The notes under the pieces: generated by a model
What the model was told of the DNA's origin: nothing
Seen by the model: only the letters and a program-made list of their open reading frames with translations
The model's database searches: none
Position numbers and translations under genes: made by a program
Part shown: positions 1 to 38,683 of the stretch, piece after piece
How the letters are laid out: the number at the start of each line of letters is the position of its first letter
How positions within the stretch are numbered: the stretch's first letter is position 1
Origin: an uncultured Pelagibacteraceae bacterium
Lineage (GTDB): Bacteria > Pseudomonadota > Alphaproteobacteria > Pelagibacterales > Pelagibacteraceae
Direction: 5' to 3'
Length of the DNA: 64,000 nucleotides
NCBI GenBank assembly: GCA_902535255.1
Contig: CACASQ010000002.1
Coordinates: 28,078 to 92,077, forward strand

Positions 1-1338
1 TTTATAAGAGCTGAAATGTTGAAACAAGGTTTTCTTGAATACCAAACTCCTATTTTAACCTCCTCAAGCCCAGAGGGTGCAAGAGACTTTTTAGTGCCAA
101 GCAGATTAAATCCTGGAAAATTTTATGCTCTACCTCAGGCACCTCAACAGTTCAAACAATTAATAATGGTTTCAGGTTTTGATAAATATTTTCAAATCGC
201 TCCGTGTTTTAGAGATGAAGATGCTAGAGCGGATAGAAGTCCAGGAGAATTTTATCAATTGGATTTAGAAATGTCTTTCGTAGAACAGGAGGATGTATTT
301 AAAGTTGTTGAAAAACTAATGGTAAATGTTTTTAAAAGATTTTCATCTAAAAAAATAGTAGATGAAAAGTTTCCAAGAATATCTTTTAAAGAGTCCATTG
401 AAAGATACGGAACTGATAAGCCAGATCTAAGAAATCCTTTGATTATAAAAGATGTTACGAGTATTTTTTCAAGGGATGATATAAAATTTGATATTTTTAA
501 AAAATTAGTCAAATCTGGGGCTTCTGTAAAAGCAATATTAACTAAAAATACAAAAAACAAATCTAGAAGTTTTTTCGATAACATTGATAAATGGGCAAAA
601 GAGCAAGGTGGTTCAGGATTAGCTTATTTTACTATCGAAAAAGAACAAAAAATAAGTGCAAAAGGCCCAGTTGGCAAGTTTTTTAGCGAAGACTCATTAA
701 AAGAAATTATGAAGATTTGTGATGGGTCTATCGGTGATAGCCTTTTTCTTTCATGTGGAAAGAAGAATGAAATTGAAAAACTTTTATCAGCTGCAAGAAA
801 TAAGATAGCTGAAGATCTTAATTTAGTTGATCATAACAAATTTTCTTTTTGTTGGATTATTGATTACCCGATGTTTGAATTAGACGAAAAAACAAATAAA
901 ATTAAATTTAGTCATAATCCATTTTCAATGCCGCAAGGAGATGTGAATAAATTAAATACAAAAAATCCTCTTGATATTAAAGCATACCAATACGATATCG
1001 TTTGTAATGGCGTTGAACTTTCTTCAGGCGCAATAAGAAATCACGTTCCAGAACTAATGTATAAATTATTTGCTATAGCTGGATATAACGAAAAAGACGT
1101 AAATGAAAAATTTTCGGGGATGATACAAGCTTTGAGCTTTGGAGCACCTCCTCATGGTGGTATTGCTCCAGGAATAGATAGAATAGTGATGCTATTAGCG
1201 GGTAAACAAAATATTAGGGAAGTGACACTATTTCCTATGAACCAAAATGCTCAAGATTTAATGATGCGTGCGCCTTCAGAAATTGACACAAAACAACTCA
1301 AAGAGTTAGGTCTAAAAATAGACAATAAAAAAAGTTAA
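1..1338 (+). CDS. aspS: Aspartyl-tRNA synthetase, C-terminal part (5' truncated by window)
   Basis: Class II aaRS motifs ([40 protein letters not shown]) and GAD-type insertion; frame open from the window start. Confidence 0.95.
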
Positions 1339-2153
1339 CTCTTATTTTTTAAATTTATCCTTACATCTGATAAATCTACTAATTTTTCTTCCAAATTACT
1401 TCTTACGAAGCCTTTAGATGTAATATTTTTGACAATATTTAAAAATTTGTCATTTGTACTTCCATCTTCAATATTCTTCGATCTAGCAATTGAAGGAGTG
1501 TGAGCTAAATCTTCTTTACCGAGATAAGATATGGCTAATTCACGAAAAACATAGTCTAGGATAGAAGACGCACTTAAAATTCTGTCATTTCCAACTACTT
1601 TACCTGAAGGTTCAAATTTTGTGTCTAAAAATGCATCTACATATTCATCCAGCGGAACTCCATATTGTAATCCTAAAGATATAGCTATTGCAAAGTTATT
1701 CATCATTGCTTTAACTAACTCGCCTTCTTTATTTGTATCTATAAAAATCTCGCCAATTTTACCGTCATCATACTCGCCAGTGTGTAGATACACTTTATGG
1801 TCTCCAATTTGTGCTTTTTGAATATAACCCTTCCGTCTGTCAGGCATTTTAAATCGTGCATTATTTTTTATCAAATTTGGCTGATCAATCTTGCCAATAC
1901 TATTTTTTAAGAGCGTTTTATTTTCAGTAATATTCTTACTTGTAGTTTTTTCAATTTTGATGTCTTTAAAGTTTTGATTTTTAAATTCACCGATTTTTTT
2001 TGTTTTTCTATTATTTAACTTAACATCTATAACCTCCACTTCACCATCGGTTCTGCTATCGATTTTTGATAGCTCATTTTCATTCAAATTTTCAAGAGAA
2101 TGTACTGTTTTAAAGGTACAAGTGTAGTAAGTTTCAACGATGTATTTTTTCAT
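1335..2153 (-). CDS. Stand-alone protein resembling the C-terminal region of B12-dependent ribonucleotide reductase (NrdJ, TSCPD-type)
   Basis: [70 protein letters not shown]...[24 protein letters not shown] resembles the NrdJ C-terminus; catalytic barrel absent. Confidence 0.8.
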
Positions 2154-2253
2154 AATTAATTGAAATTCTTTACAAACTAGATATATATTAATTGTTAAAA
2201 GTGTCTATATTATAATAATACACTTTTAAATTGTGTGGATTTAAAATTTAAAA

Positions 2254-2607
2254 ATGTTTTTAAAAGTAATTTTTACATGGTGGAATAAACAAACTTTAGG
2301 AACTTTTCTTAAAACTTTGTTTACTGGCTCTTATGTTGGAAAAGATAGCTTTGGAAATAAGTATTATAAAAACAAAAAGAATGAAAGATGGGTAATATAT
2401 TCAAATAAAGTCGAGGCTACAAAAATTACTTCAGAATGGTATTTATGGATGCACCATACTATTGACAAAATTCCAGAAGATAAAGATAAGAAAAAATTTT
2501 CTTGGCAAAAAGAACATGCTGAGAATAAAACAGGTACAAAAAATAGTTATAAACCTACTAAAATTAAAAAAGATGCTGTGCAAAAAAAATATCAAACATG
2601 GAAATAA
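2254..2607 (+). CDS. NADH:ubiquinone oxidoreductase 17.2 kDa-type subunit (NDUFA12 family)
   Basis: GSYVGKDSFGNKYYKNKKNERWVIYSNKVEATKITSEWYLWMHHTIDKIP motif. Confidence 0.88.
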   Translation: MFLKVIFTWWNKQTLGTFLKTLFTGSYVGKDSFGNKYYKNKKNERWVIYSNKVEATKITSEWYLWMHHTIDKIPEDKDKKKFSWQKEHAENKTGTKNSYKPTKIKKDAVQKKYQTWK

Positions 2608-3109
2608 AGATAGAATTTTATTTTTTATTTCTTTTATTATCTTTTTAAATATATCTACTAAAATTTTTTCTGAAGAAAAAATTTCAAGCTCTCCTTTAAT
2701 TAATATGGATCAGATTAAACCAAGCTTTGAAGAAGTAGAAGATCAAGAAGATAACATGTCTTCAAATCAAAATATCAAACAGAAAGAGAAAAAAAATCTT
2801 GCAGCAAATTCTTCACATGCAGTCCTTATAGGACTCGATAAAATAACAGCCAAATCATCTCAAATTGTTGTTAGCCTCAAAGAGCCTCAAACATTTGGCC
2901 CACTTGAAATTAAAATTTTAAAATGCGGTAAAATTAAGGTCAATAATAAAGTAGATGATGTTGCTTACATGCAAGTTAAAGATTTAACTAAAAATGAAAA
3001 TGAGAAAGTATTCATCTTTAATGGATGGACATTTTCATCTGATCCTAGCCTAACACCTTTCGATCATGCAATTTATGATTTGCAGCTTTTAAATTGTTAT
3101 AATATTTAA
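2573..3109 (+). CDS. DUF2155 domain-containing exported protein
   Basis: Hydrophobic N-terminus, then GLDKITAKSSQIVVSLKEPQTFGPLEIKILKC...FNGWTFSSDPSLTPFDHAIYDLQLLNC; typical partner of the NDUFA12 gene in alphaproteobacteria; start chosen at the internal ATG. Confidence 0.75.
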   Translation: MLCKKNIKHGNKDRILFFISFIIFLNISTKIFSEEKISSSPLINMDQIKPSFEEVEDQEDNMSSNQNIKQKEKKNLAANSSHAVLIGLDKITAKSSQIVVSLKEPQTFGPLEIKILKCGKIKVNNKVDDVAYMQVKDLTKNENEKVFIFNGWTFSSDPSLTPFDHAIYDLQLLNCYNI

Positions 3110-4443
3110 TAAAATTTTTCCTTGCTTAACCAATTTGTGTCAAACTCAGAATTTACAAATTTCTTATGCCTTAAAATCTTTTTGTGTAAATCTATTGTAG
3201 TTGTAATACCCTCTAAAACAAATTCATCAAGAGATCTTAAGGTTCTCTGAATAGCTTCTGTTCTATTTCTTCCTTTGCAAATTACTTTCGCTATTAAACT
3301 GTCGTAATAAGGAGTTACTTTACATCCTTGGAAGATTGATCCGTCCACCCGGGTTCTAAAACCAGATGGTTGATGGCAAACACTAATAACTCCAGGGCTA
3401 GGTTGAAAATTTAAAGCTGGATTTTCTGCATTAATTCTGCATTCTATTGAGTGACCTCTTGGCATTATATCATGCTGTTTAAGAGCAGTTTCCCCGGTGT
3501 AAGCAATCCACAACTGTTCTTTTACAATATCTATACCTGTTTGTACCTCTGTTACAGGGTGTTCTACTTGAACTCTTGTATTCATTTCTAAAAAATAAAA
3601 TTTTCCATTTTCGTAGATAAACTCTACTGTTCCTGCTCCTTCATAATTAATTTGCTCTACCATTTTTACTGTCTTTTCAAGAAGATCTTTTCTTTGTTCC
3701 TTAGTTAGAACCGGGCTAGGTGTTTCTTCAATTAATTTTTGATGTCTTCTTTGTACTGAACAATCTCTTTCACCTAGTTGGACTGTTCTATTTTTACCTG
3801 ACATTATTTGTACTTCTATATGTCTAGGGTTCTTAAAATATTTTTCAATATATAATTCGTCTTTTCCGAAAAATTTCATTGATTCTGTTTTTGCACTTAA
3901 AAATAAACTCTCCAACTGACTTTCTTTTTCTACAACTTTCATTCCTTTACCACCACCACCTCCAGCTGCTTTAATTAAAATAGGGTACCCGATTTTATTT
4001 CCAATTTTTTTGGCCTCTGAAAAAGAACTAACCGCTCCTTCAGAGCCTTCGATGATTGGTAGACCATATTTTTTAGCTATTCTTTTAGCTTCAATTTTAT
4101 CTCCCATTTTTGAAATAATGTCTGCACTAGGTCCAACAAATTTTATACCATGTTTATTTACAATTTCTGAAAACTTTGCATTTTCAGATAAAAAACCATA
4201 ACCAGGATGAATTGCCTCTGCTCCAGTCAAATCAACAGCTGACATGATTGATGAAATGTTAAGATAACTATTTTGGGGTTGGTGAGAGCCAATGCAAACA
4301 CTTTCATCTGCTAATCTTACATGCATTGAATCTGCGTCTACGTCTGAGTGAACAGCAACAGTAGAAATTCCCCATTCTTTACAGGCTCTTATAACTCTAA
4401 CTGCTATTTCGCCTCTATTAGCAATTAAAACTTTTTTAAACAT
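3106..4443 (-). CDS. accC: Acetyl-CoA carboxylase biotin carboxylase subunit
   Basis: FKKVLIANRGEIAVRVIRACKE; ATP-grasp GGGGGKGMKVV; EMNTRVQVEHPVTE. Confidence 0.96.
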   Translation of the reverse strand: MFKKVLIANRGEIAVRVIRACKEWGISTVAVHSDVDADSMHVRLADESVCIGSHQPQNSYLNISSIMSAVDLTGAEAIHPGYGFLSENAKFSEIVNKHGIKFVGPSADIISKMGDKIEAKRIAKKYGLPIIEGSEGAVSSFSEAKKIGNKIGYPILIKAAGGGGGKGMKVVEKESQLESLFLSAKTESMKFFGKDELYIEKYFKNPRHIEVQIMSGKNRTVQLGERDCSVQRRHQKLIEETPSPVLTKEQRKDLLEKTVKMVEQINYEGAGTVEFIYENGKFYFLEMNTRVQVEHPVTEVQTGIDIVKEQLWIAYTGETALKQHDIMPRGHSIECRINAENPALNFQPSPGVISVCHQPSGFRTRVDGSIFQGCKVTPYYDSLIAKVICKGRNRTEAIQRTLRSLDEFVLEGITTTIDLHKKILRHKKFVNSEFDTNWLSKEKFY

Positions 4444-4449
4444 TATTAT

Positions 4450-4875
4450 TTATTTCAAAAGGACTAACGTTTGACCAAATTCTACTGGCTGACCATCTTC
4501 AACTAAGATTTTTTTTACTTCTCCATCACTAGTGGATGGCACATGATTCATAGTTTTCATTGCCTCAACAATCATTACTGTTTGACCTTTTTTTACTTTA
4601 TCCCCAATTTTTACGAAAGATTTCGCACCAGGTTCTGGAGCTAGATAAGCAGTTCCAATGATTGGAGATTTTACTCTTACTCCTTCTTCATTAGTATTTG
4701 TATTCAAAACAGTTTTATTTTGAGCAACTACGGCGCTACCTTTTGATTGTTCAACTGGCTTAACACTTTTTGAAACTTTAATCTTTGTTGGACCATCTTG
4801 ATACTCAAGTTCTGTTAAATTAAATTCTTTCAAGTTTTCAACAAGTTCTTTTATTAATTTTTTGTCAATTTTCAT
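4450..4875 (-). CDS. accB: Biotin carboxyl carrier protein of acetyl-CoA carboxylase
   Basis: VEAMKTMNHVPS biotinylation motif; adjacent to accC. Confidence 0.95.
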   Translation of the reverse strand: MKIDKKLIKELVENLKEFNLTELEYQDGPTKIKVSKSVKPVEQSKGSAVVAQNKTVLNTNTNEEGVRVKSPIIGTAYLAPEPGAKSFVKIGDKVKKGQTVMIVEAMKTMNHVPSTSDGEVKKILVEDGQPVEFGQTLVLLK

Positions 4876-5306
4876 TTTTCTATATATTTTTTCATCGCAC
4901 TTAATGCCATGATATAACCATTTTCACCAAAACCACAAATTACTCCTCTTGCAATTTTACTAATTAATGATTTATGTCTGAATTCTTCTCTATTATAAAT
5001 ATTACTTATATGCAATTCAATTATAGGAATTTTAAGAATTTTTAGAGCATCATGTATAGCAACAGAAGTATGCGTGTAACCACCTGCATTAATAATTAAA
5101 CCATTTTCCCTATTCCTAGAAGATTGAATTTTTTCGACCAATTCACCTTCAATATTTGATTGAAAAAACGATAGATCTATATTGTTTTGTTTCGCAAACT
5201 GTTTACAATTTGTTTCTACATCTTTTAATGTGAAACTTCCATATTGGCTTTTCTCTCTTTCGCCTAAAAGGTTGAGATTTGGTCCATTAAGAATTATAAT
5301 TTTCAT
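4872..5306 (-). CDS. aroQ: 3-dehydroquinate dehydratase, type II
   Basis: IILNGPNLNLLGEREKSQYG; NAGGYTHTSVAIHDAL; ELHISNIYNREEFRHKS. Confidence 0.95.
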   Translation of the reverse strand: MKIIILNGPNLNLLGEREKSQYGSFTLKDVETNCKQFAKQNNIDLSFFQSNIEGELVEKIQSSRNRENGLIINAGGYTHTSVAIHDALKILKIPIIELHISNIYNREEFRHKSLISKIARGVICGFGENGYIMALSAMKKYIEK

Positions 5307-5339
5307 TATAAATTATTATAATCATTGATTAACTTAATT

Positions 5340-5543
5340 ATGGCAAAAATACAATTAAATGGAAAAAAAATATCAATCAGGTCAAATTTATCAATATTAG
5401 ATTTACTAAAAAAATACAAATTACACGATAGAAAAGTAGCTATAGAACATAATGGCTCTATCGTAGCAAAAAGTAATTATAATAAAAAGTTTCTTAAAAA
5501 TAAAGATAGAGTAGAGATAGTTCATTTTATTGGTGGTGGTTAA
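5340..5543 (+). CDS. thiS: Sulfur carrier protein ThiS
   Basis: Small ubiquitin-like protein ending in IVHFIGGG; followed by thiG. Confidence 0.88.
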
Positions 5544-5544
5544 C

Positions 5545-6318
5545 ATGAAGAAAGATATTTTTAAAATTGCAAATACAAAACTTCGTTCAAGATTGATTGT
5601 CGGAACTGGAAAATATAAAAATTTTGTGGAAACAGCTAAAGCAGTACAGGCCTCTGGGGCAGATATGGTTACAGTTGCAGTAAGGAGAATAAATATAACT
5701 GATAAAAAAAAACCAATTTTGACAGATTTTTTAAACCCAAAAAAAATTACACTATTACCAAATACTGCTGGATGTTTTTCATCCTTCGAAGCTTTGAGAA
5801 CTTTGAGGTTGGCACGAGAAATGGGTGGATGGAAATTAGTTAAATTAGAGGTTTTAGGTGATAAAAAAACGCTTCTCCCAAATATGATTGAAACAGTTAA
5901 AACGACAAAAATTCTAGTTAAAGAGGGTTTTGAAGTTATGGTTTATTGCACTGATGACCCACTTTTAGCTAAAAAATTAGAGGATTATGGTGCATCAGCG
6001 ATAATGCCATTGGCATCTCCGATAGGCTCTGGTCTTGGCTTCCAAAATAAAATGAATATTACTTTAATTATTAAAAATGCAAAAGTTCCAGTTATAGTTG
6101 ATGCAGGTATTGGAGCTCCCTCTGATGCAACATTAGCGATGGAGCTTGGTTGCGACGGAGTTCTCATCAATAGCGCTATAGCTAAGGCTAATAAGCCTAT
6201 TTTAATGGCTAAAGCATTTAAAGATGCAGTTATTTCAGGTAGAAATGCATTTTTAGCAGGTAGAATGAAAAAAAACTATTTTGGCTCTCCAAGTTCACCT
6301 ATTAAAGGTTTGATTTAA
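5545..6318 (+). CDS. thiG: Thiazole synthase
   Basis: [41 protein letters not shown]. Confidence 0.95.
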
Positions 6319-8119
6319 TTTTTTTCTTTTTCTTTCTAACCCAGAGAGTCCTTAATTTTTTTTTTATCTTACTTTTTTTATTATCTTTTTTAATTTTTTT
6401 TGTATCTTTTTTAATTTTCTTATTTACAAAAGGTAAAGTCTTATTTTCAATTATTTTATCAATATTTTCTATTCGATTGATTACTTTTTTTGATTTATTA
6501 ATTAATTCTATTTTATATTCAGGAATAATTAATTTTTCATCAGAGTAAAATTCAATTTTAAAGGAATATTTTTTTTGGAAATATTTCAACTCTTCTAAAA
6601 AATTTTTTTCAATAAAAATTTTAACTTTCTCTGGGACATAAGCTTTGATAATTTTTACTTTATCAATAAATGCTAAGTGTTGCGTTTTCTTGAGAATTTT
6701 TTGGGAAAATGAACCTAATGAAAGTTGAGTTTCCCATTTAATAGAGCCCTCACGCAATCTTTGTCTTGTCATTTCAAGTAACCCAAAATTACTTATTCTA
6801 CCAATTTGTATTCTTGCTCTATCTTTTCTTATACTTTCACGCATTTTTTTTTCAACTGTACGTCTGTTATAAAAATTCATCATATCAATAAAATCAATTA
6901 CAATTAGCCCTGATAAATCTCTTAATTTAATTTGGTGAGCTATTTCTTGAGCAGCTTCTAAATTTGTATTTAAAGCAGTTTTTTCAATATTAATTTGTTT
7001 AGTTGATTGACCCGAGTTTATATCAATTGATACTAGTGCTTCAGTCGGGTTTATCACTATATAGCCGCCTGATTTTAATTTTACAGTCGGTTCAAAAATA
7101 TTGTTTAATTCTTTTTCAATATTTGCGTCATGGAAAAGAGGTATTTTTCCTCTATATTTTTTAATATTTTTTACATTTTTAGGCATTAATTCTTTCATAA
7201 ATTTTTTTGCTTTTTGGTATGCTTCGTTTCCCTCAATATAAATATTTTTAGTTTCATTATCGTAAGTGTCCCTTAACGTTCTCTTAATTATATCTCCCTC
7301 CTCATACACTAATGATGGAGCATTCGAGTCTAAGGCCTTATCTCTAATTTCCTCCCAAGTTTTCAAAGTATTTTGAAAATCTTTTTCTATTTCATTTTTT
7401 GTTTTGTTTGCCCCAGCAGTACGCACTATAACGCCCATACTTTTTGGAATCATAATTTCACTAAGGATATTTCGAATTTTTTGTCTATCAGATGAATTAA
7501 AAATTTTTCTGGATATCCCCCCACCCTTGGGAGTGTTTGGCATTAAAACCATGTATTTACCTGCTAAAGAAATGAAAGTGGTCAGAGCCGCTCCTTTCTG
7601 ACCTCGTTCCTCCTTTATCACTTGTATTAAAACCACTTGACCTGGTTTAATCACCTCTTGAATTTTATATCTTTTGATACCGAATGAAGACTTTACTTCC
7701 TCTCTAAATTCCTTTTTTTCTACTTCATTACTTTTTGCGATCTTATTTTCTTCGCTGTTAGTATCATTGTTTATTTCCTCCTGGCTGTTATCTTGAGGGG
7801 AGTCGATAGTTTTATTTTTAAGGTCCTCTCTTATTTTTTCCTCTGCAATTTTAATTTTTTCTTTATCCTCTGATGGAATTTGGTAATAATCAGATTGAAT
7901 ATCATTGAACGCTAAAAATCCATGCCTCTCACGACCAAAATTTACAAAAGCTGCTTGTAGAGAGGGCTCAACCCTACTAATTGTCCCTAAATAAATATTA
8001 TTTTTAAAGTTTAAATTATTTTTGTCTTCAAACTCATACTCTTCAATTGAGGTGTCAGATTTAAGAACAATACGTGTTTGGTTCGGATGCGAAGCATCGA
8101 TATATAAATTTTTTTCCAT
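6302..8119 (-). CDS. rne: Ribonuclease E/G family endoribonuclease, compact, Lys-rich C-terminus
   Basis: S1-like N-terminus ([25 protein letters not shown]); [71 protein letters not shown]. Confidence 0.93.
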
Positions 8120-8264
8120 GTTAAATGAATTCCTTTAAATGTTGTGAATTTTGTGTAAATTAAATTTGTCATAAGTTATATTTTACACGATTTTATAAAT
8201 AAATATACAAATTTAAACTTCTTATGCCTAAAGAAAGTCAAAATTATTATTAATAAAAAGGAAA

Positions 8265-10625
8265 ATGTTAAATTTTTTCAACTTTTCAGTAAAATTCATT
8301 ATAATTTTTTTAATTGTAATTTTATTATTCGCCTTTTCTACACTGTGGTATTTCTCAATAGGTTTGCCTGATTATAAAAAATTATCAAATTATCAGCCTC
8401 CTATCTCAAGTAGGGTTTACTCAGAAGATGGAAAGCTCATAGCAGAATATGCTTTACAAAAAAGATTATTTGTTCCTTACGAGTCAATTCCAGAAGTGGT
8501 GATAAATTCATTCCTTTCAGCAGAAGACAAGAATTTTTTTAATCATCCAGGCGTTGATGCGAAAGGTATCTTAAGAGCAGTTTTTAATAATATCAAAAAT
8601 TTATCACAAAATAAAAGACTTGAAGGAGCCTCTACTATCACCCAGCAGGTTGCAAAAAATTTTTTATTAACTAATGAAGTTTCAATTAAAAGAAAGATTA
8701 AAGAAGCTATTTTAGCTTTTAGAATTGAGCGAGCATATTCTAAAGAAAGAATTTTGGAATTATATTTAAATCAAATTTATTTAGGACAAGGTACATATGG
8801 TATTGCTGCAGCAAGCCTTGAATATTTCAATAAGTCTATCAAAGAGCTTACTTATCCTGATGCCGCTTTATTAGCAGCTCTTCCAAAAGCACCAAGTAAA
8901 TATAATCCATATAAATTTGCGGATTTAGGAAAGTTCAGAAGAAATTTGGTTTTAAAAAATTTAGAAGAAAATAATTTTATCTCAAAAAAACAATTAAAAA
9001 AATTTACAAACTCACCTTTAAATTTGAAAAAAAGAAAAATAGAAATAGTAAATGAAGCCAACTCATACACAGAGGAAGTTAGAAGATCAGTAAAAGAGAA
9101 TTACGGATTTGAAAAACTGTACTCTCAAGGTTTAAGTATTAGAACTCCACTTAATATTAATTATCAAATACAGGCTATTAATTCTTTGAGAAAAGGAATT
9201 GAGGAATACGATCAAAGACGTGGTTGGCGGGGGCCTTTAGTAAATAAACAGAAAAATAAAAATTGGGAAAAGAAATTAAAAAATATTAAATTAGATCCAA
9301 CCCTAAGTTGGAACTTTGCTGAGATAATAAATCTTAATGATAATGAAATAGATTTTAAGATTTTAAGTGATGAGAAAAAAAATAATTTGGAAAAATTATA
9401 CGCTAAAGATATCAAGTGGTCGTTAAGATACAAAAAAAAAATTCAAGATAAATTTAGTATTGGAGATATTATTTTTGTCAAAAAAGAAAAAAACAAATGG
9501 TTATTAAAACAATATCCTAAAGTTAATGGGGGTATAGTTGTAATTGATCCTTTCACGGGAAAGGTGAAAGCTTTGGTAGGGGGATTTAACTTTAAATCAA
9601 GTGAGTTTAACAGAGTAACACAGGCTAAAAGACAACCAGGTTCAGCATTCAAACCTATTGTGTATGCTGCAGCTTTAGAAAACGGTTTCTCACCTAATTC
9701 TATCATTTTAGATGCTCCTTTTGTCGAAAGTCAAGGAGTTGGTTTAAAAAACTGGAAACCAGAGAACTATGGCAAAAAATTTTATGGTCCTTCAACATTT
9801 AGAAAAGGAATAGAGTACTCTCGAAACTTAATGACTGTCAGAATAGCAAAAATTCTTGGTATGGATAAGATTTTAGAATTGTCAAAAAAACTAAATATTT
9901 ATGATGAGATACCTGAGCTTTTATCAGTATCATTGGGTGCAGCAGAAACTACCTTAATAAATCTTACTTCAGCATATGCTCCTTTTGTAAATGGAGGAAA
10001 AAAAATTGAGCCAACGCTTATTTCCAGAATTCAAGATAGAAGAGGAAAAACAATTTTCCAATCAAAAAATATGCAGTGCCAAGGTTGTGATAAATTTATT
10101 GTTGATACAAATTCCTTACCAAATATTAAAAATAATACTGAGCAAGTAATAAGTGAAGAAACTGCATATCAAATGACCTCAATCTTAAGTGGAGCAGTAG
10201 AGAGAGGAACTGCAAAAAAATTAAAAACTCTTAAAGTGCCTATTGCTGGTAAAACAGGAACTACAAACGATAATTATGATGCATGGTTTATCGGATTTTC
10301 ATCAAATTTGATAATCGGGGTTTATATTGGATTTGACAATCCAAAAACTCTTGGTAAATATGAGACAGGATCCAAAGCAGCTCTTCCAGTTTTTAAAAAC
10401 TTTGTTGAAAACGCCTTGTTTAAAGATGATTTTTCAGATTTTGAAATACCTGAAAATATCTTTTTAACATCTTTAAACTACGATACAGGATTAAAGTCCT
10501 CTTTAGGGGATAAAAATACAATTATAGAAGCTCTGAAGAGAAGAGATATTAACAATATAAATAATAACAATTTAATTTCCATTAATGGACGTGATAATAT
10601 AGTTAAATTTAGGCAGTTTTATTAA
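8265..10625 (+). CDS. mrcA: Penicillin-binding protein 1A
   Basis: Transglycosylase motif EDKNFFNHPGVD...GASTITQQVAKNF; transpeptidase motifs RQPGSAFKP and GKTGTTNDNYDAWFIGF. Confidence 0.95.
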   Translation: MLNFFNFSVKFIIIFLIVILLFAFSTLWYFSIGLPDYKKLSNYQPPISSRVYSEDGKLIAEYALQKRLFVPYESIPEVVINSFLSAEDKNFFNHPGVDAKGILRAVFNNIKNLSQNKRLEGASTITQQVAKNFLLTNEVSIKRKIKEAILAFRIERAYSKERILELYLNQIYLGQGTYGIAAASLEYFNKSIKELTYPDAALLAALPKAPSKYNPYKFADLGKFRRNLVLKNLEENNFISKKQLKKFTNSPLNLKKRKIEIVNEANSYTEEVRRSVKENYGFEKLYSQGLSIRTPLNINYQIQAINSLRKGIEEYDQRRGWRGPLVNKQKNKNWEKKLKNIKLDPTLSWNFAEIINLNDNEIDFKILSDEKKNNLEKLYAKDIKWSLRYKKKIQDKFSIGDIIFVKKEKNKWLLKQYPKVNGGIVVIDPFTGKVKALVGGFNFKSSEFNRVTQAKRQPGSAFKPIVYAAALENGFSPNSIILDAPFVESQGVGLKNWKPENYGKKFYGPSTFRKGIEYSRNLMTVRIAKILGMDKILELSKKLNIYDEIPELLSVSLGAAETTLINLTSAYAPFVNGGKKIEPTLISRIQDRRGKTIFQSKNMQCQGCDKFIVDTNSLPNIKNNTEQVISEETAYQMTSILSGAVERGTAKKLKTLKVPIAGKTGTTNDNYDAWFIGFSSNLIIGVYIGFDNPKTLGKYETGSKAALPVFKNFVENALFKDDFSDFEIPENIFLTSLNYDTGLKSSLGDKNTIIEALKRRDINNINNNNLISINGRDNIVKFRQFY

Positions 10626-11714
10626 TGCAAAATTTTGAAAACAAATTAGCGGTAACAGAAAAAACCCTCAACAACATAAGGGGGTATCTTTGAAAAGAAT
10701 AAAGTAAAACAAAAAATTAAAGATTTAGAAAAAACTTTATTAAACGAAAATTTTTGGAAAGATCAAAATTCAGCAAAATCTACAATTAAACAAAAAAAAA
10801 TGCTTGAGGAAATTTCATATTCTTATGAAAGTTCCCTTAAAGAAATAAAAAATATCAAAGATTTATTTCAATTAGCCTCAGCTGAAAAAAACGAGGAGGT
10901 AATAGCTGAATGCATCAATAAGATTGAGGAAATTCTCAAAAAAATAAAAAAAAGTGAAATTAGTTGTTTTTTATCTGGAGAAAACGATGATTTGAACATT
11001 TATCTAGAGATCCATGCTGGTGCAGGTGGTACCGAAAGCCAAGACTGGGCAGAAATGTTAAGGCGTATGTATATGAAATGGTTCGATAAAAAAAAATTTT
11101 CTTACAATATAATTAGCGAACATCAAGGAGAAGAAGCCGGGATAAAATCTTCAACAATAAAAGTTGATGGAGAATATGCATATGGCTTAATGAAATCCGA
11201 GTCAGGAGTGCATAGACTAGTAAGAATATCCCCATTTGATAGCGGAGCAAGAAGGCACACAAGCTTTGCTAGCGTATGGGTCTACCCTGCAGTTGAAGAC
11301 GATATAAACATAAAGATTGAAGATAAAGATTTAAGAGTAGACACATATAGATCAAGCGGAGCAGGAGGCCAACATGTAAATACAACTGATAGTGCAGTGA
11401 GAATTACTCATTTGCCAACAAAAATAGTAGTGCAATGTCAAAATGAAAGATCTCAGCATAAAAATAAAGAGACATGTTTTAAAATGTTAAGGGCTAGACT
11501 TTATGAATTTGAGATACAAAAAAGAGAGGAAGAAGATCAAAAAGAACTTGATACAAAAACTGATATTGGTTGGGGACATCAAATTCGATCTTACGTTCTA
11601 CAACCCTACCAATTAGTTAAAGATCTTAGAAGCAAAACCGAGAATACAAATCCCATGAGTGTTTTGGATGGTAATATAGATCAATTTATAGAAGAAGGAA
11701 TTAAAAACAGGTAA
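10625..11714 (+). CDS. prfB: Peptide chain release factor 2, +1 programmed frameshift at 10688-10692
   Basis: ATG at 10625 opens MQNFENKLAVTEKTLNNIRGYL*, with in-frame TGA at 10691-10693 inside AGGGGGTATCTTTGA; +1 shift joins the main ORF containing GGQHVNTTDSAVRITH (GGQ) and the RF2-type SPFDSGARRHTSF. Confidence 0.95.
10679..10693 (+). promoter_or_regulatory. RF2 autoregulatory +1 frameshift signal AGGGGGTATCTTTGA
   Basis: SD-like AGGGGG, then slippery CTT and in-frame TGA; downstream frame (GAA AAG AAT...) continues into prfB. Confidence 0.93.
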
Positions 11715-23265: not shown

Positions 23266-25290
23266 ATGAAAACTACTTCTTATAAAAATAAATTGTCTCT
23301 ACTAGATAAGCTAAAAGCTAAGTCTAAAAGAGAAGCAAATATATTTTTCTCTCTATGTGAGAAAGATAGTGAAATAATTTCGGTAAAAAAATTTAAAGAT
23401 GTTTTGTTAAACTCAGGCTTGAAAGCTAAAGATAAAAGATTATATAATTTATTTCAAAATTTAGATGCCCATGGTGATAGAGTCGTATTTGAAGACTTTA
23501 TTGAGATTATTCGAAGTTCGGAGTTGATTGTTGAAAAAGCATTACGAGGTGAACTATCGATACCAGACTTTAGCTACTTTGCAAAAAATTTAGACAACAT
23601 GTTTGATGAGGTTAAAAAAATAAAATCAGGAGAGTTGGCCTCGTATATCCCACCACTAGCAAATGTTGATCCAGACCAATTCGGTGTTGCTATTGTTACA
23701 ACAGATGGTCAAATATATCAAAGAGGAGACAGTGAAGTTGATTTTTCAATTCAATCTATGTGTAAACCTTTTAATTACTGCTTTGCAATGGAAAAATTAG
23801 GACTAGAAAAAGTTCATGAACATGTTGGTCAAGAACCTTCAGGAAGACAATTTGATGATCTTACTCTATTAGCTAAAACTGCTGTCGGTCAACTTAATCG
23901 CATACCTTTTAATCCAATGGTAAACGCTGGCGCTATAATGACAGCAGGCCTTATAGAACCAGAAAACTCCCACAGTCAAAGATTAAGATATATAAGACAA
24001 CAATTTGGAAGATTAATAGGTTGGTCTCCAAATGATGAATTTAGTGCTAAGTTACCTAGATTTAATAAAGATATGGCACGACAGGAAAATTTTACAGGAT
24101 ATAATAATATTGCCATGGGTTATCTTTTGATGGCTACAGGTAATTTACCTCATACTAAAACTAAGTTGCATAACGACATTCATCCCGATCAAGATGAATT
24201 TGATTTTTACTCTGAACCTGCAGTCACAGAAGCTCTTAAACTTTATTTTAGCATATGTTCATTAGAGATGACCTCAGTAAATTTTGCAACAGCTGCTGCT
24301 ACACTTGCAAATAGTGGTGTTTGCCCTATTTCTCAAGATCGTGTGTTAAGTCAGAAAACAGTAAGAAACTGTTTACCTGTTTTACAAACTAGTGGAATGT
24401 ATAACGCCAGTGGTACATTCTTTCAACAAGTGGGATTACCAGCTAAAAGTGGAGTAGGAGGAGGAGTTATATTGATAGTTCCAAGATTAATGGGAATATG
24501 TATTTTCTCTCCTCGTTTAGATAAACAAGGTAATAGTGTGAGAGGAATTGAAATGGCAAAAAAAATTACGTCGAAATATTTAGTTCATACTTTTGATGGT
24601 ACAATGACAGATACAGACCGTCTTGATCCAAAAATACCGATTTCAAAGTGGCGTGCCAATAGTTGTGGAGAAGCTATTTGGGCAGCAAGTAACGGCAATA
24701 TTAGAACATTGGAACGACTAGTGAGTGAACAAAGAGATCTTCAAATTGGAGATTACGATATGAGAACACCTTTACATTTAGCATCAGCAGAAGGTCAGCT
24801 TGAAGCAGTTAAATTTTTACTTAAACAAGGTGTTAAACCAATTCCTGATCGTTGGGGAGGCTATGGTTATTTCGATGCAAAAAATAATAACCATAAAGAT
24901 ATTGTAAAAGAATACGAAAAACTTGATATTAATTATACTCAAGCATCACATTTAGTAGAGGACCCAAATGGAAAGACAGATAAAATGGCAATTTATGATG
25001 ATGAATTGGCAGTAATTGAATTACTATTCGCTGCTTATGAAAATAACGTTGAGGGTGTTCGAACCTTAATTGCAAAAGGAGTACCTATACATGCAGGAGA
25101 CTATGATTCTAGGACGGCTTTACATCTTGCAGCTGCTGAGGGTTGTTTAGAGGTAGTTGAGTATTTAGTCTCTCATGGACACCCATTGTTTGTTCGTGAT
25201 AGATGGGGAGCTACACCTTTAGATGAGGCTAAGAGAGAAAAGAGAAAAGCTGTATATAATTTTCTTAAAAATATTAAATATAAAAATTAA
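23266..25290 (+). CDS. glsA: Glutaminase with N-terminal EF-hand-like region and C-terminal ankyrin repeats
   Basis: IPPLANVDPDQFGVAIVTTDGQIYQRGDSEVDFSIQSMCKPFNYCFA; EPSGRQFDD; NPMVNAGAI; SGVGGG; ankyrin RTPLHLA / RTALHLAAAEG. Confidence 0.93.
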   Translation: MKTTSYKNKLSLLDKLKAKSKREANIFFSLCEKDSEIISVKKFKDVLLNSGLKAKDKRLYNLFQNLDAHGDRVVFEDFIEIIRSSELIVEKALRGELSIPDFSYFAKNLDNMFDEVKKIKSGELASYIPPLANVDPDQFGVAIVTTDGQIYQRGDSEVDFSIQSMCKPFNYCFAMEKLGLEKVHEHVGQEPSGRQFDDLTLLAKTAVGQLNRIPFNPMVNAGAIMTAGLIEPENSHSQRLRYIRQQFGRLIGWSPNDEFSAKLPRFNKDMARQENFTGYNNIAMGYLLMATGNLPHTKTKLHNDIHPDQDEFDFYSEPAVTEALKLYFSICSLEMTSVNFATAAATLANSGVCPISQDRVLSQKTVRNCLPVLQTSGMYNASGTFFQQVGLPAKSGVGGGVILIVPRLMGICIFSPRLDKQGNSVRGIEMAKKITSKYLVHTFDGTMTDTDRLDPKIPISKWRANSCGEAIWAASNGNIRTLERLVSEQRDLQIGDYDMRTPLHLASAEGQLEAVKFLLKQGVKPIPDRWGGYGYFDAKNNNHKDIVKEYEKLDINYTQASHLVEDPNGKTDKMAIYDDELAVIELLFAAYENNVEGVRTLIAKGVPIHAGDYDSRTALHLAAAEGCLEVVEYLVSHGHPLFVRDRWGATPLDEAKREKRKAVYNFLKNIKYKN

Positions 25291-32276: not shown

Positions 32277-34661
32277 ATGAAAACTTCTTATTTAAAACCT
32301 GTCCTGCCATTAAGAGATATTGTAATTTTTCCATCAATGGTGGTTCCTTTGTTCGTCGGAAGAGAAAAATCAATTAAAGCGCTACAAGAAGTAATGAAAT
32401 CTGACAAGTCGATAGTTTTGGTAACTCAAAAAAACTCTGAAGTTGACGACCCTGAGAGTAAAGATTTATATCAATACGGTTGTCTAAGCAAAATTCTACA
32501 ACTTTTAAAACTTCCAGATGGAACAGTCAAAGTTTTAGTCGAGGGAGAAAAAAGAATAAAAATTTTAAAATATAAAGAGGATAGTGCTAAATATCTAACA
32601 TGCGAAGTTGAGATTGTAGAAGACCAAAATTTATCAAACGATCTTGATCAAATGGCTATGGGATTAGTAAAAAAATTTGAAAGATTGCAAGTTTTAAATA
32701 AAAAGGATTTTAATGAAGGATCTAATAATTTAAAAAATAGTAATAATGCATCTCAAATATCAAACATTATTTCCTCAAATCTAAATATCCAAATTTTTGA
32801 GAAGCAAGAACTTCTTGAAATAACAGATTTAAAAAAAAGGCTAGAAAAAATTCACTCTATTATTGAAAAAGAAACAAGCGTTCTGACAGTTGAGAAAAAA
32901 ATCCGTGGAAGAGTAAAAAACCAAATGGAAAAAACACAGAGGGAGTATTATTTAAATGAACAATTAAAAGCTATTCAAAAAGAACTTGGAGAAATTGATG
33001 AAGGTAAAGATGAATTAACAACTTTATCTAAAGCTATTAATGACGCAAAAATGCCAAAATTAGCAAAAGAAAAATGTTTATCAGAATTGAAAAAACTTAA
33101 GTCAATGAGCCCTATGTCTGCAGAAGCAACTGTTGTTAGAAACTATTTAGATTGGATGACTGAACTTCCGTGGTCAAATAAATCTAAAATTAACACTGAT
33201 TTAAATAATGCCCAAAAAATTTTGGATGAGGATCATTACGGGCTGGAAAAAGTCAAAGAGAGAATAATTGAGTTTTTAGCTGTTCAAAAAAGGATACAAA
33301 AAATGAAAGGTCCAATTTTATGTTTGGTAGGACCCCCAGGAGTTGGCAAAACATCATTAGGTAAATCTATAGCAAAAGCAACTAATAGGAAATTTATCAG
33401 AATTTCCCTTGGTGGTATTAGAGATGAAGCTGAAATTAGAGGGCACAGAAGAACTTATATTGGTTCATTGCCAGGAAAAATTATTCAAATGATGAAAAAA
33501 GCTGGTACAAAAAATCCTTTATTTTTACTAGATGAAATTGATAAAGTTGGAAATGATTACAGAGGTGATCCTTCCTCAGCTCTACTTGAAGCATTAGATC
33601 CTGAACAAAATAAAGAGTTCAACGATCATTATTTAGAAGTTGATTATGATCTATCAGACGTCATGTTTGTAACTACTGCAAATACACTTAATATACTTCC
33701 TCCTCTTCTAGATAGAATGGAAGTAATTAGATTATCTGGCTACACGGAAGATGAAAAAGTAAATATTTCTCAAAAATTTTTAATACCAAATCAAAGTAAA
33801 AATAATGGCCTCAAGAAAGATGAGTGGGCAATAGATGAAAATATTAATAGAAAAATTATAAGACATTACACCAGAGAGTCTGGCGTGAGAAATCTTGAAA
33901 GGGAGATATCCAAAATTGCTAGAAAATTAGTAAAGAAAATTGATAATAAAGAGAAAATCAATAATCCAATTAAAGATACTGATTTAAAAACTTTGCTAGG
34001 TGTTCAGAAATTTAATTATGGTGAAATAGAGGAGGAGAATAGAGTAGGAGTAGTAACGGGTTTAGCGTGGACTGAAGTTGGTGGCGAAATATTAAAAATA
34101 GAGTCAGCAATTATGCCTGGTAAAGGAAAAATGCAAATTACTGGAAAACTCGGCGATGTAATGCAAGAGTCAGTCAAAGCTGCAAAATCTTATATAAGAT
34201 CTAAAAGTTTAGAGTATGGAATAATTCCTCCAATATTTGATAAAAAAGACTTCCATATTCATGTTCCTGAAGGGGCTACTCCTAAAGATGGTCCTTCAGC
34301 AGGAGTTGGGATGGTGACTTCTATAATTTCTGCTATTACAGAAATTCCAGTAAATAAAAATGTAGCGATGACTGGAGAAATTACATTAAGAGGTTTAGTT
34401 CTTCAAATAGGTGGCTTGAAAGAAAAACTTTTAGCAGCACATAGGGCAGGTATAAAAAAGGTTTTAATTCCTATTGAAAATAAAAAAGATTTAGTTGAAG
34501 TTCCAAAAACAATATTAGACTCCATGGAAATAATTACAGTTAAAAATGTTGATGAAGTATTAAAAGTTGCTCTAACAAAACCGCTCAAAAGAGTAGAATG
34601 GGTAGAAGTTGATCAAATTTCTAAAAAAGAAAAAACGAAAGAAGAACTGAGCACTCATTAA
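32277..34661 (+). CDS. lon: ATP-dependent protease Lon
   Basis: LCLVGPPGVGKTSLGKSIA; HVPEGATPKDGPSAGVGM catalytic serine region. Confidence 0.97.
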   Translation: MKTSYLKPVLPLRDIVIFPSMVVPLFVGREKSIKALQEVMKSDKSIVLVTQKNSEVDDPESKDLYQYGCLSKILQLLKLPDGTVKVLVEGEKRIKILKYKEDSAKYLTCEVEIVEDQNLSNDLDQMAMGLVKKFERLQVLNKKDFNEGSNNLKNSNNASQISNIISSNLNIQIFEKQELLEITDLKKRLEKIHSIIEKETSVLTVEKKIRGRVKNQMEKTQREYYLNEQLKAIQKELGEIDEGKDELTTLSKAINDAKMPKLAKEKCLSELKKLKSMSPMSAEATVVRNYLDWMTELPWSNKSKINTDLNNAQKILDEDHYGLEKVKERIIEFLAVQKRIQKMKGPILCLVGPPGVGKTSLGKSIAKATNRKFIRISLGGIRDEAEIRGHRRTYIGSLPGKIIQMMKKAGTKNPLFLLDEIDKVGNDYRGDPSSALLEALDPEQNKEFNDHYLEVDYDLSDVMFVTTANTLNILPPLLDRMEVIRLSGYTEDEKVNISQKFLIPNQSKNNGLKKDEWAIDENINRKIIRHYTRESGVRNLEREISKIARKLVKKIDNKEKINNPIKDTDLKTLLGVQKFNYGEIEEENRVGVVTGLAWTEVGGEILKIESAIMPGKGKMQITGKLGDVMQESVKAAKSYIRSKSLEYGIIPPIFDKKDFHIHVPEGATPKDGPSAGVGMVTSIISAITEIPVNKNVAMTGEITLRGLVLQIGGLKEKLLAAHRAGIKKVLIPIENKKDLVEVPKTILDSMEIITVKNVDEVLKVALTKPLKRVEWVEVDQISKKEKTKEELSTH

Positions 34662-34669
34662 GAAATCTT

Positions 34670-35560
34670 TTAATCTAACCATTCTTTATACTTATCTAAA
34701 TTAGAAAAAACATAACTTGGTAATTCTTTTTCATCAATCTTTTTTAAAATTGACTTACCTGACCACTTATATCCTCTTTGATCAATGTTGTGATCGTACA
34801 TAACTCTTTTTTCCGAGATAAGTTTTTTGAGATCTTGAATTTTTAAACCGCTTTCTTCAAATTCGTAATGATGAGCAAAATTAAGGAGTTTTTTTTCTAA
34901 TTCTTCTGCTGTTCTTAAACAAGTGAAATGCCACCCTCCGTTTTTAATAAAATGGAGATTTGAATATTTTTTTTTTGAAAAAAAAGTATCAATTCTCCAT
35001 TTTGAATATTTTTTCCCTTTTATATTTCTTAACCACTGCGGAGATTGAAAATTTTTTTTTTTAACTGCTTTTGTTCCATGCCAAATAAAGTCACCATAAA
35101 ATAAATTAAGTTTATAATAAAACATTTTTTGCTCGAAGATTAGAATATTATTATTTATCTTCGAAAATTCTAGAACTGAAAGATTAGGAATTTCATCTAA
35201 ATCACTTATTAAAATTAAATCTTCATCTGAAACATCATCCAAGCCTCTATACAAATTTTCTCTTTGAAAATAATCTCTTGCCATACCATTTAAGATAAGT
35301 TTTTCTCCTCTTTTATGTTTTGACTCTCCGTCCTCAAGTTTTAAAATATTTTCCGGTTGTTTATCTACTACGATATAATTGATCTTATCTTTAAACTTTG
35401 AAAATTTACTAATATCGAATTTTAAATCTTTTTTGGCACCATTATGGGTGTAAGTTGCCTCAGTAATTATGAATTTTTTTACATACTGATCTAGATGATT
35501 TAACCTTAAATCTAAAAGTAAATCCTCATCAAAATACATAAAGCAGTCATATATGTTCAT
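34670..35560 (-). CDS. Glycosyltransferase family 17-like protein
   Basis: MNIYDCFMYFDEDLLLDLRLNHLDQYVKKFIITEATYTHNG; LILISDLDEIPN; GWHFTCLRTAEEL. Confidence 0.82.
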   Translation of the reverse strand: MNIYDCFMYFDEDLLLDLRLNHLDQYVKKFIITEATYTHNGAKKDLKFDISKFSKFKDKINYIVVDKQPENILKLEDGESKHKRGEKLILNGMARDYFQRENLYRGLDDVSDEDLILISDLDEIPNLSVLEFSKINNNILIFEQKMFYYKLNLFYGDFIWHGTKAVKKKNFQSPQWLRNIKGKKYSKWRIDTFFSKKKYSNLHFIKNGGWHFTCLRTAEELEKKLLNFAHHYEFEESGLKIQDLKKLISEKRVMYDHNIDQRGYKWSGKSILKKIDEKELPSYVFSNLDKYKEWLD

Positions 35561-35610: not shown

Positions 35611-38163
35611 ATGAAAAAGAAAATCATTATTACTGGTGGTCTTGGTTATATCGGTACAGAACTGTGTAAAATTTATTCAGGTTATAGCTGGCATCACAAA
35701 GTTATAATCGTTGATAACAGGTTTATATCTGAAAGAGTGAATCAAATCAGAAAATGGAATATGGAGTTTATCCAGGGAGATATTTTAAATAAAGATTTTG
35801 TAGACAACAATTTTAAAGATGCAGATGTTGTTCATCATTTAGCTGGAATAACGGACGTTCCAAGGACTAAAACAGAGTCAAGTAAGTCACACGATGAAAA
35901 AATTCATAAAGTCGGGGTTATTGGAACTAAAAATATTTTGGAAGCAATAAATGATAAGTGTAAAATCATCTTCCCATCAACACATGTCGTTTTTGAGGGT
36001 ATTAATAAAGTTAAAACAGACATTGGTGAGAACGAAACTACGCAACCAGTTCTATCTTATTCTAATTCAAAAGCAATTAATGAAAATCAATTAAAAGACT
36101 CAGGAAAAAATTATATAATTTTAAGGCTTGGATCTGTATATGGCTATTCAACAGATACTATGCGTATTGATATAATGACAAATCATTTTTGCAAAATTGC
36201 ATCTCAAAATGGAACATTAAAATTATTCGCTGGCGGCAGACAAATTAAAAGTTTGGTGCCTTTGATTGATGTTGCTAGGTGCTTTAAATTCATGGAAGAA
36301 AAAGATAAAATCAAATCTCAAACCTTTAATTTAACCAAAGATACATTAACTGTTAAAGAAGTTGCAAAAATTTGTAAAAAACACAATCCTAAAATTGAAT
36401 TAAAAGAAACTAACGATGAAGTACCAAATTTAGGTTTTTCTTTATCAAATAAAAAACTTTTGAAAACTGGATTTAAATTTCTTTATAACATCGATGAGAG
36501 TATTAAAGAAATGATACATAAATGGTCGAAACAAAAGTTTATTAAAGATTTAGAGTATGTAAGAGACGGTGAGGATTTATATATTGATAGAAGAGGTATG
36601 ATTAGCAACCACGAATTAACTGAACCAGTGAATTTAATAGGACTAATTCAATCAAAAAAAGGTACAGTAAGAGCCAACCATTACCACCCACAACAAGAGC
36701 AGAAATGTTTATTTACTAAAGGTCAAATAATAGAGGTATATCAGAATATTATAAATTCAAACGAGCCAAAAATTACAAAAGTTGTAAATGCAGGCCAACT
36801 TTCAGTAATTAAACCGAACGTTGCTCATGCAATGGTATTTACAAAAGACACAACTTTTTTAAATTTAGTAAGAGGTGAAAGAGATCATGAAAATTATGGC
36901 ATTACCCATACGATTAAACATACATTTGTTGATGAAAAAGAAAAGAACCTTTTAATACAATCTTATAAATTTGAATGTAGATCCTGCGGAAATGAAAATT
37001 TGAAAAGAGTAGTTTCTTTGGGTTATCAGCCTTTAGCAAATAATCTTCTTAAAAAAGCAAACGACAAATGTGAGTTTTATCCTTTGGAGATGAATTTCTG
37101 TGAAAAATGTTACAATTGTCAATTATCAGTTTCAGTAGATCCAAAAAAAATGTTTGCAAATTATTTATATACTTCGTCTACATCAAAAGTAACGAGAGAT
37201 CATTTTCTCAATGCAGCAAAAAAATATTTTAAAGAATTAAATTTAAATAAAAAAAAATCATATATAATAGACATTGGAAGCAATGACGGAATTGCATTAA
37301 AACCATTTTTAGAACTGGGTTTTAAAAAGGTTTTAGGTGTCGAGCCAGCTAAAAATTTAGCAAAATTAGCTAATAAAAATAGAATAAAAACTTTTAATGG
37401 ATTTTTAGAAAAAAAGAACTTAAAAAAAATAAAAAAAAACGCAGACTTAATTTTAGCGTCAAATGTATTTGCGCATTCAGACAAGCTAAGAGAGATGGCT
37501 GAATGTATGTTTAAACTGCTTAATAAAAAAGGAACTATAGTCATTGAAATACAATATTTGATGAACACTCTGAAAGATCTTACTTTTGATAACATTTATC
37601 ACGAACATTACAACTATTGGTCTCTTACTTCTTTAGTAAACTTTTTCAATCAATTTGGTGGAAAAATATTTAGATGTGAAAGAATTGATACTCATGGAGG
37701 TTCATTAAGAGTCTATATTAAAAAAGATGTGAAAGCTAAAATAGAGAAGAGCGTTAAAAATTTACTTAAAGAGGAAGAAAAGTTTGGAATTAAAAAATAT
37801 AAGACCTATCAAGATTTTGGAGATAAGGTCTATAAGATACGAGAAAATATAAGAAAAAATATAAAAAAGTTGAAAGAAAAAAATAATCTTATTATTGGAT
37901 ATGGAGCTCCAGCAAAAGCAACTACAGCATTAAATTTTTTTGGGATATCTAATGAAATAGATTTTATAGTAGAGGACAATAAGTTGAAACATAATAAATT
38001 TATTCCTGGTGTTAAAATACCTATTAAAGATAAGAAGAAAATTAAAAATAAACATAATGCTTTAATAATTCTAGCTTGGAATTTTTTTAATGATATAAGA
38101 AAAAATAATCTTGATCTCTCGAATAATATTATCAATATTAAAGATTTAGAGATTTCTAAATAA
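35611..38163 (+). CDS. Fusion: NAD-dependent epimerase (SDR) + cupin/WxcM-like sugar isomerase or epimerase + SAM-dependent sugar C-methyltransferase
   Basis: IIITGGLGYIGTELCKIY (Rossmann); VRANHYHPQQEQKCLFTKGQI (cupin); CRSCG...CEKCYNCQ (Zn-binding), YIIDIGSNDGIALKPFLELGF (SAM), GYGAPAKATTALNFFG (C-terminal methyltransferase module). Confidence 0.85.
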   Translation: MKKKIIITGGLGYIGTELCKIYSGYSWHHKVIIVDNRFISERVNQIRKWNMEFIQGDILNKDFVDNNFKDADVVHHLAGITDVPRTKTESSKSHDEKIHKVGVIGTKNILEAINDKCKIIFPSTHVVFEGINKVKTDIGENETTQPVLSYSNSKAINENQLKDSGKNYIILRLGSVYGYSTDTMRIDIMTNHFCKIASQNGTLKLFAGGRQIKSLVPLIDVARCFKFMEEKDKIKSQTFNLTKDTLTVKEVAKICKKHNPKIELKETNDEVPNLGFSLSNKKLLKTGFKFLYNIDESIKEMIHKWSKQKFIKDLEYVRDGEDLYIDRRGMISNHELTEPVNLIGLIQSKKGTVRANHYHPQQEQKCLFTKGQIIEVYQNIINSNEPKITKVVNAGQLSVIKPNVAHAMVFTKDTTFLNLVRGERDHENYGITHTIKHTFVDEKEKNLLIQSYKFECRSCGNENLKRVVSLGYQPLANNLLKKANDKCEFYPLEMNFCEKCYNCQLSVSVDPKKMFANYLYTSSTSKVTRDHFLNAAKKYFKELNLNKKKSYIIDIGSNDGIALKPFLELGFKKVLGVEPAKNLAKLANKNRIKTFNGFLEKKNLKKIKKNADLILASNVFAHSDKLREMAECMFKLLNKKGTIVIEIQYLMNTLKDLTFDNIYHEHYNYWSLTSLVNFFNQFGGKIFRCERIDTHGGSLRVYIKKDVKAKIEKSVKNLLKEEEKFGIKKYKTYQDFGDKVYKIRENIRKNIKKLKEKNNLIIGYGAPAKATTALNFFGISNEIDFIVEDNKLKHNKFIPGVKIPIKDKKKIKNKHNALIILAWNFFNDIRKNNLDLSNNIINIKDLEISK

Positions 38164-38683
38164 TTAAGTTTTTCCAAATTTCAAAAATATTTCTCGCACT
38201 TTCAAAGAAATAATTTAGGTAAGTTTCAGAAATAGGAAAAATATTAATTATAAAATCTTGTGTAAAATAAATAATTCGTGAGATAGATATGATTAAGAAA
38301 ATTAGTAATATTAATGAGTTGAAGAAACCAAAAGAAACATTTTTTTTCTCATTTGACTTTACAGATTTTTGAGTAATTGTGTCGCTAATTTTAATTCCAT
38401 GCTTTTTTGCTAAATATTCTGGTGAGTATAAACTAATTTCTCTAGATTTTTTTGAAGTAATTTTTTTTACTTTTTTAGGTTTTTGTATTTTTTGTTGTGT
38501 CGGCTGAGGTTTCGCAACTACTTTTTGTAGTCTTGAGATTGATTGTTGTTGTGTAACTTCACCTACAGGAAATTGTTTCCATTTTAAACCACAAAAACCG
38601 CATTGTACCAATCTACCAGATGCTGGAATCGAGTTATCAGGAAGCGTAAATTTTTTTTCACCACAATTACAAGTTATAATCAT
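38156..38683 (-). CDS. Zinc-ribbon domain-containing membrane protein
   Basis: MIITCNCGEKKFTLPDNSIPASGRLVQCGFCGLKWKQFPVG plus a single C-terminal TM segment. Confidence 0.75.
   Translation of the reverse strand: MIITCNCGEKKFTLPDNSIPASGRLVQCGFCGLKWKQFPVGEVTQQQSISRLQKVVAKPQPTQQKIQKPKKVKKITSKKSREISLYSPEYLAKKHGIKISDTITQKSVKSNEKKNVSFGFFNSLILLIFLIISISRIIYFTQDFIINIFPISETYLNYFFESARNIFEIWKNLII

Follow-up and report, generated by a model that had tools for sequence, protein, structure and literature searches.

A triple fusion of SDR, cupin and C-methyltransferase domains shared by SAR11 bacteria and phages, with a putative role in nucleotide-sugar C-methylation

Overall, we describe a single 850-aa open reading frame of a SAR11 bacterium that joins an extended SDR, a cupin and a complete sugar C-methyltransferase, sugar-modifying enzymes that usually occur as separate proteins, and we consider it reasonably probable that the product is a trifunctional NDP-sugar C-methylation enzyme. 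Each domain comes from a known family, and the SDR-cupin fusion is already known from CapF. The new part is the three-domain architecture, which is common to SAR11 and phages and turned up in no sampled proteobacterial genome outside SAR11. In the open-access literature that we searched, no description of the triple fusion, its two-host distribution or its behavior at an insertion slot was found.

Results

Architecture of the fusion gene

The window, by which we mean the whole 64,000-nucleotide stretch that was analyzed, comes from a SAR11-type assembly of 945 kb in 17 contigs with a completeness of 84.6%. The initial annotation had read the gene as one 850-aa frame of SDR, cupin and C-methyltransferase, and the intact frame, Pfam, AlphaFold and homologues all bear this out, with the proposed domain borders matching ours within a few residues (Table 1). 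Pfam matched the protein with Epimerase at residues 5-241, Methyltransf_13 (Zn) at 456-515, Methyltransf_23 at 543-683 and Methyltransf_14 at 694-833. The zinc, SAM and C-terminal modules expected of a sugar C-methyltransferase were thus all recovered, and together they make up residues 455-850. An AlphaFold model built from 41 homologues (mean pLDDT 86.8) assigned the residues up to about 305 to the SDR, 315-421 to a beta-strand domain and those from 455 onward to the methyltransferase, and the cupin region was folded as beta-strands in both AlphaFold models. A promoter scan gave sites no more numerous than in shuffles. Elsewhere in the window, positions 23266-25290 appear to encode a glutaminase that has an EF-hand-like part joined to its N-terminal side and ankyrin-like repeats to its C-terminal side.

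Table 1. Features of the fusion gene and its locus, in positions of the window
Feature	Position	Strand	Details
lon, left border of insertion slot	32277..34661	+	
Family-17 glycosyltransferase, divergent partner	34670..35560	-	ORF called to 35581 from TTG; homologues suggest ATG at 35560
Three-domain fusion gene	35611..38163	+	850 aa, open frame without internal stop; Pfam, homologues, AlphaFold
Extended SDR domain	35611..36525	+	residues 1-305; TGGLGYIG NAD motif, D35, T124, Y150, K154; nearest solved structure Cj1427 GDP-heptose C4-dehydrogenase
Cupin domain	36547..36873	+	residues about 313-421; metal-type motif H357, H359, E363, H406
Zinc-binding module of C-methyltransferase (Methyltransf_13)	36976..37155	+	C456, C459, C497, C500
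SAM-dependent methyltransferase core (Methyltransf_23)	37237..37659	+	DIGSNDG, FDNIYHEH; catalytic Y518 (just upstream), H622, Y663, E665, H666
C-methyltransferase C-terminal domain (Methyltransf_14)	37690..38109	+	GYGAPAKATTALNFFG
Zn-ribbon protein gene, right border of slot	38156..38683	-	adjoins lon in empty-site genomes

A frameshift or assembly artefact had been named as a possible flaw. However, of the 72 sampled genomes of the same genus, 44 carry a near-full-length copy (73-82% identity) and 12 more a partial one, many of the partial copies lying at contig ends. Because these genus mates carry near-full-length copies and viral contigs carry full-length ones, the open reading frame is confirmed as a true fusion, and chance joining or misassembly is excluded. 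The search for identical fusions that had been recommended therefore succeeded in both SAR11 and viruses. For the residue comparisons below, 81 SAR11 and 37 viral copies were aligned (118 in total).

The C-methyltransferase domain

The methyltransferase matches MtmC, KijD1 and TcaB9 both in sequence (E down to 1e-59) and in fold (TM to target 0.89). The TcaB9 residues Y76, H181, Y222, E224 and H225, which were mutated in entries 4e2w-4e31, correspond to identical Y518, H622, Y663, E665 and H666 in the fusion, and these five are invariant in the 118 copies. TcaB9, KijD1 and MtmC are C-3'-methyltransferases with the same three-module build and the same five mapped active-site residues at about 28-30% identity, but they are stand-alone enzymes of antibiotic pathways that act on dTDP-4-keto deoxysugars, whereas the fusion adds an SDR and a cupin in front. 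MtmC is a bifunctional methyltransferase-ketoreductase. The four zinc cysteines are invariant in the SAR11 copies and are mostly or all lost together in 10 viral rows of the alignment (L115, L124, L125, L126, L127, L137, L140, L141, L144 and L145); these rows, five of which are near-identical, keep every catalytic residue.

The SDR and cupin domains

By sequence (E 8e-24 over the whole length) and by fold among SDRs (Foldseek 4e-22), the SDR is closest to Cj1427 of Campylobacter. It carries TGxxGxxG at T8-G15, T124 (S in three copies), Y150 and K154, together with an acidic D35 for NAD that is invariant across copies. In RmlB 4,6-dehydratases, a D/E pair directly follows the catalytic threonine. 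This Asp-Glu pair is absent from the fusion, which reads T124-H125-V126 with H125 and V126 invariant in all copies, and the SDR scores far under the RmlB cutoff. An NDP-sugar 4,6-dehydratase (RmlB or Gmd) was rejected on T124-H125-V126, a triplet that makes such an activity unlikely for this domain. Instead, the SDR looks like an NAD-type NDP-sugar C4 oxidoreductase nearest to Cj1427, with which it shares the NAD-type motif and the absence of the dehydratase acids. Cj1427 differs in being a single-domain protein of about 25% identity that works with a separate cupin epimerase and a reductase (PMC10680097); the C4-dehydrogenase, cupin epimerase and C4-reductase of that system act in series on GDP-heptose (PMC10680097).

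Pfam gave the cupin no match above cutoff, PF14667 reaching 18.4 bits in the window protein against a cutoff of 28.7. Among the homologues, this family, which covers the CapF C-terminal cupin, was matched weakly, below or near threshold, in 16 of 16 (best E 2e-4). Profile searches also matched the cupin to Cap5F at E 0.06, and the fold search lists DdahB, FdtD, WbcA, CapF and RmlC with TM near 0.5. The metal-binding HxH...E...H motif (H357, H359, E363 and H406) is kept in all 118 copies. We regard the cupin as apparently metal-type and weakly CapF-like. In CapF, an SDR-cupin bifunctional enzyme, the zinc cupin epimerizes and the SDR reduces (PMC5393024). CapF, or Cap5F, resembles the fusion in setting an SDR and then a metal cupin in one chain, although the profile match to the fusion cupin is weak; CapF differs in having no methyltransferase, in using NADPH and in acting on UDP-sugar substrates (PMC5393024), and the fusion SDR did not rank near it. 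Taken together, the enzyme class first proposed, C-methylation of a nucleotide sugar in which an SDR and a cupin take part, is supported by homology, with the corrections that the SDR resembles a C4 oxidoreductase and that the cupin is weakly CapF-like with an intact metal-type motif.

Putative mechanism and substrate

Homology, from which we infer every chemical step as well as the order of the reactions, the substrate, the methylation site and the acceptor, suggests the following mechanism. The NAD-type SDR would handle C4 of an NDP-sugar, which it would either oxidize to a ketone or, as the last step, reduce again, and the metal cupin would epimerize the carbon or carbons adjoining the ketone. 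The methyltransferase would add the SAM methyl to a ring carbon next to the ketone, most likely C3 as in TcaB9, KijD1 and MtmC. The ketone would be reduced, and a single glycosyltransferase, often a divergent GT17, would move the branched sugar onto a surface glycan.

A variant of this explanation, in which the SDR acts last, is a serious candidate that we rate somewhat short of an even chance. RmlB or Gmd encoded elsewhere would make a 4-keto-6-deoxy sugar, and the fusion would epimerize, C-methylate and reduce it, with the SDR serving as a 4-ketoreductase; the antibiotic and Coxiella virenose deoxysugar pathways are the model for such a late-pathway enzyme. Of 16 SAR11 genomes with the fusion, 14 score over the cutoff for RmlB, the window's own among them, and in the window's own genome rmlB, rmlA, DegT and an RmlC-like gene lie together. 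The characterized relatives of the methyltransferase use dTDP-4-keto deoxysugars, and CapF combines an SDR reductase with a cupin epimerase (PMC5393024). However, the invariant D35 points to NAD and not NADPH, the closest SDR is a C4-dehydrogenase rather than RmlD or GFS, and the fusion relocates between unrelated sites as one gene, with no dehydratase accompanying it; finding RmlB is weak evidence, since this enzyme has a place in other pathways as well. The invariance of D35 and the mobility of the gene independently of a dehydratase lead us to favor the 4-keto route with the SDR as an NAD-type C4 oxidoreductase, and we judge the late-pathway reductase reading to be nearly as good.

A self-sufficient converter encoded by this one gene is more doubtful. 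The SDR would oxidize C4 of a housekeeping NDP-sugar and retain the NADH, the cupin and the methyltransferase would work on the resulting 4-keto sugar, and its reduction would be carried out with that retained NADH or by the methyltransferase module. With no other pathway gene, a single mobile gene and one swappable glycosyltransferase might thereby alter the glycan on the surface of SAR11 or of a host infected by a phage.

The clues to the substrate conflict, with RmlB in most of the 16 fusion-bearing SAR11 genomes and Gmd over its cutoff in 5 set against Gmd homologues, the commonest dehydratase near the viral copies, and against an SDR resembling a GDP-heptose enzyme. A heptose substrate was rejected as a general rule. 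Heptose genes are rare: they surround the fusion in one lineage (L117/L118) of the 45 viral loci, where GmhA-, transaldolase-, HddA- and HldE-C-like genes at 2425-11092 form a viral heptose-precursor set, and clear HddA/GmhA are missing in most fusion-bearing SAR11 genomes.

The SAR11 locus and its partner glycosyltransferase

A contig scan with one genome per species gave 332 relatives, of which the best 80 are all from SAR11 and all hold essentially the full fusion. In 71 of these 80 loci, the fusion lies in a slot between clpP-clpX-lon and Zn-ribbon-nuoABCD. The neighboring GT17 gene (PF04724, in the window 58.6 bits against a cutoff of 26) stands head-to-head with the fusion across a gap of less than 100 bp in 65 of the 80 loci, and it is the more variable of the two (47-82% identity versus 74-82% for the fusion). 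One genome, G060, has two GT17 genes, and eight loci have no glycosyltransferase between lon and the fusion (L047, L051, L063, L091, L102, L104, L107 and L109). Two genus mates, G020 (L204) and G072 (L206), have an empty site in which the Zn-ribbon gene comes directly after lon, with nuoA beyond it and neither GT17 nor the fusion present; most genus mates scored as fusion-negative also lack the lon end in their assemblies. At nine loci (L095, L096, L098, L100, L101, L106, L108, L110 and L111) the fusion sits at other chromosomal places, and four of these nine have a GT2 (AglJ/DPM-like) gene directly upstream. Because the fusion occurs in the slot and elsewhere, with GT17, with GT2 or without a glycosyltransferase, it makes up a portable unit, moving either by itself or together with a single glycosyltransferase. 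A genome of another Pelagibacteraceae genus (L209, G417, 917-7165) has about a dozen small ORFs between lon and nuoA, most of them exported-looking.

The survey of cells covered Pseudomonadota. Even sampling of 337 alphaproteobacterial and 399 proteobacterial genomes, in partly overlapping sets, gave no full fusion outside the window's genus; these genomes held only separate methyltransferases and two possible cupin-methyltransferase neighbors. With an SDR-cupin profile, the sole match was to an SDR in one other Pelagibacteraceae genome.

Viral copies and the age of the exchange

A scan of viral contigs with the single sequence gave no matches, and a scan with the alignment gave 44 loci. A further record, LR756502.1, is an uncultured 642-kb phage genome that encodes the whole fusion (55% identity over 96% of the query in a protein-level phage search). 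In total, 37 viral copies, counting the phage record, are longer than 780 aa in a single frame, and in L150, L152, L153 and L156 the SDR-cupin and methyltransferase parts are separate neighboring ORFs. Several contigs carry UvsX-, DnaB-, ssDNA-binding-, RNR- and DNA-polymerase-family genes beside the fusion, and L143 has terminase and portal genes 2-4 kb downstream of it. These genes mark the contigs as viral. The L143 copy (7995-11369, 1124 aa) has in addition a C-terminal FkbM methyltransferase (PF05050), making it a four-enzyme fusion. The viral copies lie in islands of glycosyltransferases, aminotransferases and NDP-sugar enzymes; GT17 is present in 14 of the 45 loci and directly upstream on the same strand in seven. 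The PolB of one viral group is nearest to a Microcystis phage PolB (45%). The best viral structural match is a Klosneuvirus KNV1 methyltransferase (A0A1V0SJ68, 743 aa; E 8.5e-50), which aligns over nearly the full length but is about 100 aa shorter and 22% identical; it may join an SDR and a methyltransferase without a cupin.

In an SDR-cupin tree without outgroup, a long, fully supported branch (0.84) separates the SAR11 copies from the viral copies; the viral copies are far more diverse than those of SAR11, and those with split ORFs occur at scattered positions among the fused viral copies. It is improbable that the gene is a viral one recently acquired by SAR11, or that the contig is a misbinned viral one. 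The many viral homologues, and the lack of cellular ones outside SAR11 in the sampled proteobacteria, would fit such an origin, but both recent transfer and misbinning are refuted by the conserved housekeeping genes that flank the fusion in the 71 SAR11 loci, by a composition (GC3 0.20) similar to that of its gene neighbors and by the long branch, which makes any exchange old. We therefore regard an old exchange between viruses and SAR11, as the tree suggests, as likely.

Conservation and selection

The initial annotation had allowed for a degenerate active site; none was found in any domain. The catalytic and metal residues are near-invariant in the 118 copies, the exceptions being the zinc cysteines in some viruses, the serine at T124 in three copies and one viral row without N-terminal residues, which departs from the conservation of the SDR residues. 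Among the closest SAR11 pairs, dN/dS was mostly 0.01-0.15 in each domain and lowest in the cupin, so all domains are under purifying selection, which is strong in the SDR and strongest in the cupin. That the SDR and the cupin are regulatory or scaffold remnants beside a solely active methyltransferase is highly improbable: fusions can carry inactive domains and the cupin matches known families weakly, but the near-invariant active-site residues and the strong purifying selection in both domains speak against it. One pair deviates, L062-L092, with a dS of 2.6 (saturated) in the SDR versus 0.045 in the methyltransferase, and because the dS values of the domains are so different, recombination within the fusion gene, perhaps part-swapping, is suggested.

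Discussion

The fusion is probably a one-gene kit for placing an unusual methyl-branched sugar on a surface. The surface-glycan role that had been proposed gained support from homology, the adjacent glycosyltransferase and the viral glycan islands. If active, the fusion would also be a compact biocatalyst for branched NDP-sugars. SAR11 bacteria have among the smallest free-living genomes and, to our knowledge, little is known about their surface sugars. A gene that could supply a branched sugar, held in a switchable slot with one glycosyltransferase and common to many large phages, offers a testable route for SAR11 surface variation and phage-host conflict.
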